From assembly GCA_009701885.1 (NCBI GenBank), contig WLJH01000015.1:29718-93717 (forward strand): a stretch of 64,000 nucleotides of DNA. Reading direction: 5' to 3'. This stretch comes from Actinomycetota bacterium (GTDB taxonomy: Bacteria; Actinomycetota; Actinomycetes; Propionibacteriales; Nocardioidaceae). This document shows positions 36,523 to 39,922 of this stretch, piece by piece. The notes beneath the pieces were generated by a model, which did not search any database, was not told where the DNA came from, and worked only from the letters and a program-made list of their open reading frames with translations. How positions within the stretch are numbered: the stretch's first letter is position 1; each line of letters begins with the position of its first letter. Position numbers and translations under genes: made by a program.

Positions 36523-36551
36523 CCGCGCAGTCTAGGCCGCGGCCGCCGCCC

Positions 36552-36680
36552 GTCGCCGTCGCGAGCGGCGCCAGACGCGTGGCCTGGCAAGGCGCCGATG
36601 CGAAGGCCCACTCGTTCGTTCGTCGAGCGTCGGCAACGCAGACAGGGCGCGCGGATGGTGTCGCGTAGCAGGCGACGGGC
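36552..36680 (+). repeat. Dispersed ~130-nt intergenic element, copy 1
   Basis: CGCCGTCGCGAGCGGCG...GGCAAGGCGC...GCGAAGGC...CGTCGAG.GTC.GCAACGC...GTCGCG.AGCAGGCGA, shared with the reverse complement of 39750-39886. Confidence 0.75.
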
Positions 36681-36706
36681 GGTGGCCGCGGGCTAGGTTC
36701 GCTGCC

Positions 36707-37105
36707 GTGGAGATCCTGGTCGTGCTCACCCTGGTGGTCGCCCTCGCCGCGCTGGCCTGTGCCGTGCAGGCCCTGCGGACCGTCCGGGCGGGCGCCCGAC
36801 GCGACTCGGTCGAGGCGCTGCCCGAGGACGTCCTGGGTCTGCGCCAGGAGGTCGCCGCGCTCCGCGCCGAGGGCCGTGATGCCCTGCGGCACCTGGCCGC
36901 GGTCCGCTACGACGCCTTCGGCGACATGGGCGGGCACCTCTCCTGGTCGGTGGCCCTGCTCGACGACGGCGGCAACGGCGTGGTGCTCACCTCGATCCAC
37001 GGCCGCTCCGAGGCCCGCACCTACGCCAAGTCGATCGCCTCTTGGCGCTGCGACCTGCAGCTCTCGCCCGAGGAGTCCGAGGCCGTCGAGGCGGCGCGTC
37101 CGTAG
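36707..37105 (+). CDS. DUF4446 family protein
   Basis: LRHLAAVRYDAFGDMGGHLSWSVALLDDGGNGVVLTSIHGRSEARTYAKSI. Confidence 0.88.
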   Translation: MEILVVLTLVVALAALACAVQALRTVRAGARRDSVEALPEDVLGLRQEVAALRAEGRDALRHLAAVRYDAFGDMGGHLSWSVALLDDGGNGVVLTSIHGRSEARTYAKSIASWRCDLQLSPEESEAVEAARP

Positions 37106-37230
37106 GGGCTGGCCCGCGGAAGGTTCGGCTGGTGCCGGCTGGACCTTTCGGTCCACGGGCGAAGGTCCAGCCGTACGCCGAAAGTTCTGACCCAGCCGCC
37201 GTCCCGCCGCCGTACGCCGCCGCGCCCGGC

Positions 37231-37971
37231 TCAGAGCAGGCTGAGCGCCCCGACGACGGCGAGCCCCACCGCGGCGACCGCGGCCACCTTCGTCACGATC
37301 CCGGCCGTCCGGGCCGATCCCGCGGCTGACTCCACCAGCTGCTCCTCGGTGCGCGTGGTGATCACGAGGTCGCCCTTGGCCGGTGCTCCCACGACCAGCC
37401 GGCCGTCCCGCTCGCTGACCTCCCCGCGCACGAACAGCCGCGTGCCGGGCTCCAGCACCCACTCCTCGTGCTCGAACCCGATCGTGTCCCGTCCGCCACC
37501 GCGACGACCCTCGCGGAACTCCGACACGGTCCGCCGCGCCCCGTCGACCCCCGAGGTCGGCTCGACGAGCACCTCGCCGGTGGCGTCGCGCAGCACGAAG
37601 GCCGACTCCGAGCTCTCCGAGGTGACGGTCTCCTCCGCGGTCGAGGAGGTCCGGTTGCCCTGGGCGTCCTTGCTGACCTTCGTGTAGCGCCGGGTCACCA
37701 CCTGGCGGTGCCACACGCACGGCGTACCCGTCTCCGGGGACCGCAGCGGACCACCGGGCCCGGGCGCCGCCTCGCCGGAGAGCTCGACGACCTCGCGGTA
37801 GGACCCGGCCCCGGCTGCCGCCGAGGCGGCCGCCGCGAGCTCGCGCAGCGTCGCGACCGTGGAGGTCTCGGTCGCCAGCATCGCCCCGCGTCGCCGCTCG
37901 GCCGACCGGCCCATCCACCAGGCCACGCCCGCGACCGCCGCCGCCACTGCCGCCGCCACCAGGAATCCCAT
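37231..37971 (-). CDS. GIDE domain-containing membrane protein
   Basis: N- and C-terminal TM segments; EDGE-like region TGTPCVWHRQVVTRRYTK...FVLRDATGEVLVEP...LVVGAPAKGDLVITTRTEEQL. Confidence 0.7.
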   Translation of the reverse strand: MGFLVAAAVAAAVAGVAWWMGRSAERRRGAMLATETSTVATLRELAAAASAAAGAGSYREVVELSGEAAPGPGGPLRSPETGTPCVWHRQVVTRRYTKVSKDAQGNRTSSTAEETVTSESSESAFVLRDATGEVLVEPTSGVDGARRTVSEFREGRRGGGRDTIGFEHEEWVLEPGTRLFVRGEVSERDGRLVVGAPAKGDLVITTRTEEQLVESAAGSARTAGIVTKVAAVAAVGLAVVGALSLL

Positions 37972-38035
37972 GCTGTGCTCCTCGACCCGTCCGTCCCGAG
38001 AGTCGGGGTCAGCCTGGCAGAGCGGGGCCCCGCAG

Positions 38036-38101
38036 TGCGAGGAAGTGACCGGTCGACCGCGAGCAACTGACCGTTCGGCCCCAAGAACCTGACTGCTCGG
38101 C
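38036..38101 (-). repeat. 22-nt-period tandem repeat family D, three units
   Basis: Reverse strand: GCCGAGCAGTCAGGTTCTTGGG / GCCGAACGGTCAGTTGCTCGCG / GTCGACCGGTCACTTCCTCGCA. Confidence 0.75.
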
Positions 38102-38106
38102 GGTCC

Positions 38107-39699
38107 TCAGCGGGGGACGCGGACGAGCACCCGGCCGTGCACGCAGCGCATCGACAGCTCCCGGCCGGGGCCGATGGAGTCGCCGTCGAGCTGGCGCGGG
38201 GTGTCGGTGGCGGCGCGGACGACGACGGTCGAGCCGGTGCGGCGGTCGATGAGCGCGTCGGTGTGCGGCCGCTTGAGCAGCACCCGCCAGGCCAGGGGGA
38301 TCCAGGCCAGGAAGTTCTTCGGGTGCAGGATCACCACGTCGAGCGTGCCGTCGTCGATGGCGGCGTCGGGCAGCAGCGGCATCCCGGCCTGGAGGAACCC
38401 GACGTTGCCGACCACGACGGTGCGCGCGCGGTGCTTGGTGAACTCTCCGCCGTCGACGGAGATCTCGACCTTGACCGCGGGGAACATCAGCGACTTCAGG
38501 CCCGAGATGACGTAGGCGATCCAGCCGACCCGCTTCTTGATGTCCTCGTTGACGCCCTCCATGATCGCGGCGTCGAAGCCCATGCCGGCCATGACCATGA
38601 AGTAGCTGTCCTCGATGCCGTCGCCGGAGACCTCGACCATGTCGATGGCCCGGTCCTGGCCGGTCAGTGCGACGTCGATGGCGGCGCGGAGGTAGAGCGG
38701 GATGTCGAGGTTGCGGGCCAGCAGGTTGCCCGTGCCGGCGGGGACGATCCCGACGGGGATGCCGGTGCCGGCGAGCTCGGCGCACACCTCGCGCACGGTG
38801 CCGTCGCCGCCGCACACCAGCACCAGGTCGGCACCGGCCACGGAGGCCTCCTCGGCCATGCCGGTGCCGGGGTCCTCGACGGTGGTCAGGTGCCAGGTCG
38901 GGTCGGCCCAGCCGGCCTCGCGGGCCATCCCGGTCACGACCGTCTGGAACTGCCGGACGTCCTCGACCTTGATCGGGTTCAGCACGACGGCCAGCCGCTT
39001 GGTGCCGGGGATGGCCACCGGCAGCGGCTCGGCCTTGACGGCGTGGCTGCGCGGCAGCGGGGAGTACGCCGCCACGACGGTCAGCAGGATGGCCGCACCG
39101 AGCAGCACGCCGGCCACGACGTCGCTGGGGTAGTGCCGGCCCAGCAGCACGCGGTCCAGGCAGATCGCCACGACCACGAGCCCGACGGCGACGTACGCCG
39201 TGCGCCGCATGCTCGCCCGACGCACCAGCATCAGCACCAGCACGCAGACGACGCCGCCGAGCGCGGCGGCGGAGGAGGCGTGGCCGGAGGGGAAGGAGTT
39301 GGTCGACAGCAGCGCCTCGGGGTCCTGCCACGGGGGTCGCTCGCGGCCCAGCCACACCTTCATGCCTGTGGTGGCGGCCGCGGTCAGCCCCGGGACGAGG
39401 GCGGCGACGAGGGCCGCGCGGCGGTAGCCCTTGGCGAGCATCAGGCCCGCCACCACGACGGTGAGGACCGTCATGCCGATCGTGCCGAAGGTCAGCTCCA
39501 CCCACCGGAGCAGGTCGTAGGCGGGGGAGCCGGCATCGACGTACGGCGTCTCCGGGCCCGAGCTGCCGCGGGCATCGACGTCGGCCAGCGGGCCCCACCC
39601 CTGGACGACGGCCACGGCGAGCAGCGCGAGGCCGGCCCAGCACAGCAGCGCCCAGGCGAGCAGCAGGGAACGGGAGCGGTCGAGCACGGGCGACAGCAT
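38107..39699 (-). CDS. Bifunctional PAP2-type phosphatase/diacylglycerol kinase family protein
   Basis: PAP2 motifs KVWLGRERPP, FPSGHASSAAALGG, LLGRHYPSDVVAG; DAGK VLVCGGDGTVREVCAEL, GIVPAGTGNLLARNL. Confidence 0.93.
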   Translation of the reverse strand: MLSPVLDRSRSLLLAWALLCWAGLALLAVAVVQGWGPLADVDARGSSGPETPYVDAGSPAYDLLRWVELTFGTIGMTVLTVVVAGLMLAKGYRRAALVAALVPGLTAAATTGMKVWLGRERPPWQDPEALLSTNSFPSGHASSAAALGGVVCVLVLMLVRRASMRRTAYVAVGLVVVAICLDRVLLGRHYPSDVVAGVLLGAAILLTVVAAYSPLPRSHAVKAEPLPVAIPGTKRLAVVLNPIKVEDVRQFQTVVTGMAREAGWADPTWHLTTVEDPGTGMAEEASVAGADLVLVCGGDGTVREVCAELAGTGIPVGIVPAGTGNLLARNLDIPLYLRAAIDVALTGQDRAIDMVEVSGDGIEDSYFMVMAGMGFDAAIMEGVNEDIKKRVGWIAYVISGLKSLMFPAVKVEISVDGGEFTKHRARTVVVGNVGFLQAGMPLLPDAAIDDGTLDVVILHPKNFLAWIPLAWRVLLKRPHTDALIDRRTGSTVVVRAATDTPRQLDGDSIGPGRELSMRCVHGRVLVRVPR

Positions 39700-39749
39700 G
39701 GCAGAGGGGAGGCGGCCACCAACTGGGGTGAGCCGGGGCCAGGCCCGGC

Positions 39750-39886
39750 CCGCCCGCGCTCGCCTGCTGCGCGACGCCAGGCGGGCGCGATGGCGGCGTT
39801 GCGGACGACTCGACGGGCCTGGCGGCCCGCCTTCGCGCCCGCGCCTTGCCCTCACACCCGCCTGACGCCGCTCGCGACGGCGATCG
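39750..39886 (-). repeat. Dispersed ~130-nt intergenic element, copy 2 (inverted relative to copy 1)
   Basis: Reverse complement matches 36552-36680 in several conserved blocks. Confidence 0.75.
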
Positions 39887-39922
39887 CAGACGGCCCGGGC
39901 CGCCCCGGATAGCCTGCTCTGC

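Follow-up and report, generated by a model that had tools for sequence, protein, structure and literature searches.

We consider it highly probable that two intergenic sites in the window (the whole stretch of 64,000 nucleotides analyzed here) are insertions of a single MITE family, which would be moved in trans by IS5 and IS1380 transposases, carry a structured core that is kept for one strand and most likely works as a folded RNA, and switch between transposon partners. The elements are short (157 bp), have a hairpin core and lack a transposase gene. They are bounded by terminal inverted repeats (TIRs) and a target site duplication, and their ends are common to autonomous elements of the IS5 family (genomes G101 and G152) and the IS1380 family (G047 and G157). 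On this basis they qualify as a MITE family, undescribed until now; a search of the literature on such repeats, with many subscription papers outside its reach, returned no description of it.

Bacterial MITEs are usually read as decayed insertion sequence (IS) ends around disposable filler. Here the conserved part is the ‘filler’, which has a one-strand fold, is distributed across an actinobacterial order and is common to two transposase families. This makes two questions directly accessible to experiment: whether a structured module can travel with DNA transposons as a passenger that switches partners, and what service it renders to them.

Anatomy and insertion sites of the window copies

Copies A and B represent one dispersed element. 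The blocks that they share, inverted at one site relative to the other but unchanged in order, can be seen in the sequence, and the covariance model built for the family confirms both sites with scores of 116.2 bits for copy A (36553-36675, plus strand) and 99.8 bits for copy B (39760-39883, minus strand). The next-best score in the window is 19.4 bits. When used as an exact pattern, the first two shared blocks match only copies A and B in the 3.96-Mb genome (reversed control, 0 matches).

An earlier note on this DNA had proposed an element of about 130 nt with blocks in the same order and spacing. The element is real and the order holds, but the spacing is similar rather than identical and the true unit is wider. 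Copy A measures 157 bp (36536-36692), with TIRs of 19-20 bp and a 4-bp CTAG direct repeat on either side, and the complete unit forms a single long hairpin. This is the layout of the family: approximately 157-160 bp, of which a conserved core of about 120 nt lies within an inverted repeat of about 20 bp. The core starts with GCCGTCGCGAGCG, finishes with GCGYAGCAGGC and contains the conserved inner motifs GGCAAGGCG, GCGAAGGC, GTCGAG and CAACGC. In copy B, this core lies on the minus strand (39762-39881) between older, imperfect arms; its target duplication was not recovered. The features of both sites are as follows.

36529-36534, minus strand: putative -10 box TAGACT of a near-leaderless pheA promoter; shares the left-edge CTAG; several relatives retain TANNCT at the empty site
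36532-36535, no strand: left target duplication CTAG of copy A, from empty sites in relatives
36536-36555, plus strand: left TIR of copy A (GCCGCGGCCGCCGCCCGTCG)
36555-36673, plus strand (the strand with the more stable fold): conserved structured core of copy A, from its score of 116.2 bits, covariation and strand asymmetry
36674-36692, plus strand: right TIR of copy A
36693-36696, no strand: right target duplication CTAG of copy A, from empty sites in relatives
36694-36699, plus strand: putative -10 box TAGGTT of a near-leaderless DUF4446 promoter; shares the right-edge CTAG, with TAGGGT/TAGGTT kept in relatives
39741-39761, minus strand: outer arm of copy B (degenerate inverted repeat), PAP2-DAGK side
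39762-39881, minus strand (the strand with the more stable fold): conserved structured core of copy B, from its score of 99.8 bits
39882-39903, minus strand: outer arm of copy B (degenerate inverted repeat), serS side
39910-39915, plus strand: TAGCCT, putative -10 box for serS, conserved in relatives that lack the element; the copy B insertion lies immediately upstream

Close relatives lack both of these insertions, as shown by the comparison of empty sites that the earlier note had suggested. Copy A is missing from all 29 of the other loci scanned in the genus; in relatives this position has, for example, CAGCCTAGGGTTTGGCCCGTG or AGTCTAGGGTCGG, as against CAGTCTAG-element-CTAGGTTCGCTGCCGTG in the window. 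Copy B has no counterpart in G052 and other relatives. Gene and promoter positions being predictions, the CTAG of the empty copy A site lies where two divergent -10 boxes overlap, TAGGGT for DUF4446 and TAGACT for pheA, a few bases from predicted near-leaderless starts. Judging by the aligned sites, duplication of the CTAG left each gene a full putative -10 box, with 157 bp now between them. Copy A would thereby have split the overlapping boxes and would now supply the upstream DNA of both genes. We infer that this splitting affects expression of pheA and DUF4446. The divergent-promoter setting described earlier is correct for copies A and B, but it is no general rule; most other copies lie at stop codons or elsewhere between genes.

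The surrounding region contains additional repeats. A second strong palindrome (37108-37190, -58.5 kcal/mol) lies just downstream of DUF4446 in the window; it recurs in G052 (L217), where the substitutions are paired, and is possibly a terminator or another small element. In G008 (L235), the pheA/DUF4446 intergenic region contains a different inverted repeat (GGTTCACCAAGGGATGAGG...CATCCCTTGGTGAACC).

Distribution of the family

The genome that contains the window is rich in the element. A BLASTN search of this genome with copy A recovers copy B with E = 1e-15, along with about 14 other strong copies, several of which lie at contig ends. Six of the approximately 16 strong copies have identical cores, and six contigs (C10, C12, C28, C34, C66 and C70 of G000; L003-L008) start in or at such copies. 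The family therefore probably limits the assembly by breaking it, and was probably mobile recently.

The covariance model detects copies in 113 of 150 Nocardioides genomes, many of which contain at least 23. An order-wide scan with the same model identified the family in 81 of 198 genomes, representing 11 of the 29 sampled genera and four families. Named loci confirmed by the model include those of Nocardioides, Kribbella antiqua and Propionibacteriaceae. Two metagenome-assembled genomes (MAGs) labelled Acidimicrobiales and Pseudonocardiales also score, which may reflect mis-binning. Matches in Burkholderia, Pseudomonas, Rhizobium and others from a pattern scan of named genomes were rejected, as the covariance model did not confirm them. 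When 47 loci, almost all from other taxa, were rechecked with the model, those that scored were exclusively actinobacterial, apart from one marginal unclassified MAG. BLASTN against plasmids and phages gave no match to the element. Likewise, the family belongs to no known Rfam family: copy A had no match at the gathering threshold or at E<=1, and the matches for another copy were, beyond tRNAs, chance-level miRNAs only.

Pairing of the core is kept for one strand

The earlier note had favored a structured RNA or a mobile element over coding sequence, and the copies have the marks of both: two-sided covariation on one strand on the RNA side, and on the mobile side TIRs, duplicated target sites, an empty site and partner ISs whose ends are identical. 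In an alignment of 36 sequences, 23 of the 34 core pairs show two-sided changes. This rises to 27 of 34 among 101 copies, with the signal lost when partners are slid, and 97.8% of the pair cells are paired compared with 82.6% in shuffles (0 of 500 as high), figures that lean towards structure given that this alignment was fitted to the covariance model. Further copies and covariation, on the absence of which the proposal was to have been abandoned, are thus both present, the covariation being strong, two-sided and confined to one strand. Descent from one duplicated coding gene can be discounted almost entirely: long open frames do cross the element in several frames, as in GC-rich DNA, but two-sided covariation, TIRs and target duplications exclude such remnants, and the copies differ by indels.

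The pairs that depart from Watson-Crick geometry are distributed unevenly between the strands. G-U exceeds A-C by 359:13 in the core, and by 160:13 after mostly-G-U pairs are left out. This asymmetry is informative because symmetry would be expected if only the double-stranded palindrome mattered. In the outer arms the ratio is 180:81, under a scoring that does not favor G-U; these arms of about 20 bp are paired in 159 of 183 unique insertions. With RNA parameters, the same strand, that of the plus-oriented core, folds more stably in 157 of 159 copies (median 19.9 kcal/mol); with DNA parameters it does so in 158 of 159. Core pairing is kept specifically for one strand, which points to a single strand, RNA or DNA, as the functional molecule.

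By its one-strand covariation the core would qualify as a new family of structured RNA. We lean, by a small degree, towards selection on the fold as RNA and a function in that form. The core and the inverted repeats form one long hairpin with pairing maintained for one strand, of which the core would most likely act as a folded RNA. The orientation of the copies counts against such a function. Among tandem genes, the folded strand is antisense in 72 cases and sense in 23 (p = 5e-7), such that few copies would be transcribed on this strand from neighboring genes, which is awkward for an RNA.

The same orientation is easier to reconcile with a substantial, if less probable, alternative, namely that the selected fold is a one-strand hairpin of single-stranded DNA, formed at replication forks or during transposition, which helps the element to move or persist at the DNA level. 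Besides the antisense excess in tandem settings, a bias of the G-U type is compatible with any single-strand fold that is specific to one strand, and DNA parameters select the same strand as RNA parameters. Among the copies listed from three genomes whose coordinate 1 is at dnaA, 21 of 24 also have the folded strand on the leading-strand template, as do 8 of 9 when only convergent or divergent settings are counted, a small and preliminary sample. This bias keeps the single-stranded DNA reading alive. However, the samples are small, the purine-rich internal loops (GAA/GA, CAA) look RNA-like, and no use of folded single-stranded DNA is known for the IS5 and IS1380 families.

Two other explanations dispense with a function of the core for the element, and both appear unlikely. 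In the first, the family is an ordinary MITE with a functionless core; pairing would simply follow from an inverted-repeat ancestry and the repair of palindromes. Arms can be kept complementary by template switching. Moreover, bacterial MITEs in general are long hairpins (PMC2229807). In contrast to an ordinary MITE, though, the core is more conserved than the TIRs across TIR clusters, the G-U bias is strand-specific, and the core is kept elsewhere despite the existence of core-less minimal elements in several genomes. In the second explanation, which we rate slightly lower still, the fold serves the host as a riboregulator, terminator or RNase III site for neighboring genes and is mobile by chance. 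Very stable hairpins occur at gene ends, sense copies are depleted in tandem settings, where the folded strand may be polar, and NEMIS transcripts have been proposed to be cut by RNase III (PMC2229807). Set against this, there is no consistent host gene or orientation, the window copies are lineage-specific, and tandem copies are mostly antisense to their neighbors. A folded RNA of the element itself remains our preferred reading.

Structural variants of the element were also observed. At three loci of G152 (L177, L178 and L179), the core between the same IS5-type ends is a variant whose inner stem is longer (GTTTGCG...CGCAAAC). Mini-elements of 51-66 bp (L062, L170-L176) consist of inverted repeats and remnants of the foot of the core, and are apparent internal deletions.

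Transposon ends, targets and probable partner change

While the outer arms keep a length of about 20 bp and their complementarity, they form approximately 35 unrelated sequence clusters (159 arms), two of which correspond to ends of autonomous ISs and many of which are singletons without a known IS. Direct repeats were recognized at 60 of 183 unique insertions. Of these, 32 are of the YTAR type, including 25 exact repeats, every one of them CTAG, and 28 are of the YTNAR type, including 22 exact repeats; exact repeats of 4 or 5 bp thus number 47 in the 183 insertions. The type of TIR tracks the type of target (p = 7e-10).

Complete insertion sequences with the same or closely similar ends provide candidate partners for both types. 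The 18-bp end GGGCGTGTCTCYYAAGTC bounds MITE copies as well as a 998-bp IS5-family IS in G101 (transposase NF033580, PF13340), with a relative in G152 flanked by CTAG. Likewise, the end AGCCTCGATCCGTGGAA bounds an IS1380-family IS (NF033539) in G047, with CTTAG on its flanks, and a MITE copy with CTGAG on its flanks. G157 contains another IS1380-family IS, which has AGCCCGGATCCACC and AGCCTGAATCCACC as its ends and CTGAG on either side. The element matches these families in its TIRs and target duplications. Unlike them, it has no transposase gene, and in the IS5-family IS that was read from end to end, the inverted repeat is not followed by the core. For the window genome itself, no DUF4096 (IS5), IS630 or IS1380 transposase domain was detected, so the partner is missing there or of another type; no IS was identified for the TIR of copy A. 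Among other candidates, IS630 was considered for the TA-like targets and rejected, as 20 genomes contained only two DDE_3 genes and no matching ends were seen. An outer stem copied from host coding sequence, considered for one copy at the end of a helicase-like gene, was set aside, given the resemblance of the arm to a TIR cluster.

These relations suggest how the family would spread. TIRs of about 17-20 bp would be recognized by DDE transposases of resident or passing ISs, with the IS5 family acting on CTAG-flanked ends and the IS1380 family on CTNAG-flanked ends. Acting in trans, the transposases would mobilize the element, with duplication of a target of 4 or 5 bp; the sequence relations are observed and transposition is deduced from them. 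As far as their ends identify them, elements of two transposase families have the structured core in common. That one core is found between the ends of two unrelated transposon types suggests repeated partner change. In a tree of 60 cores, the IS5 and IS1380 label classes are clustered, with 6 changes compared with about 20 for shuffled labels, and well-supported branches force at least 4 class switches, with weak resolution owing to the short sequences. Within this limited resolution, the tree indicates that the core has changed transposon type no fewer than about four times. Switching perhaps proceeds by fold-back copying of a neighboring IS end onto the other arm, a capture of new ends that the hairpin itself may allow.

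Several known systems resemble the family in part. RUP of Streptococcus pneumoniae, NEMIS/Correia of Neisseria and ERIC are elements of about 100-200 bp with TIRs, TA-containing target duplications and one long hairpin (PMC2229807), and the Nocardioides element is similar in size, TIRs, target duplications and its single long hairpin. RUP has its ends in common with IS630-Spn1 (PMC2229807), and the Nocardioides element likewise borrows IS ends. It differs from all three in combining one core with the ends of two transposase families, in its strand-specific covariation over many species and in its CTAG or CTNAG targets. REP/BIME elements are dispersed intergenic hairpins with strand asymmetry that are mobilized by RAYT (Y1 HUH) transposases without target duplication. 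In contrast, the Nocardioides element is longer and has the TIRs of DDE insertion sequences and exact target duplications, which set it outside the REP/BIME-RAYT group.

A parallel in organization exists with IStrons, in which one RNA structural class, the group I intron, is joined to different IS families in what have been termed multiple symbioses (PMC4227781). The Nocardioides element likewise joins one structured module to several IS families. It is nonetheless no IStron: Rfam finds no group I intron, the unit of about 160 bp holds no IS gene and has no room for any, and self-splicing is not indicated. A tentative extension is that the core is a selfish folding module, as RNA or strand-specific single-stranded DNA, which repeatedly acquires unrelated DDE transposon ends and aids its own mobilization or persistence; this would be an IStron-like symbiosis without a ribozyme.

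The choice of target may also explain where insertions persist. In 151 placed insertions, a stop codon lies within 6 nt of the element edge at 86 of 163 facing gene ends (TGA 38, TAG 31, TAA 17), and TANNNT is found at 27 of 36 nearby starts. CTAG and CTNAG contain TAG, TGA or TAA and fit TANNNT, so insertions can hit stop codons and -10 boxes and survive there, the duplication restoring the signal.

The element may itself serve as a target. In the window genome, an IS110-family transposase gene (L010:1640-3072) directly adjoins the copy on contig C4. The same junction sequence, GGATTCTCAATGACTTTGTCAAGC, follows the copy on contig C68 (L013), and the right inverted repeat is interrupted at the same position in both, as if an IS110 element targets the MITE end.
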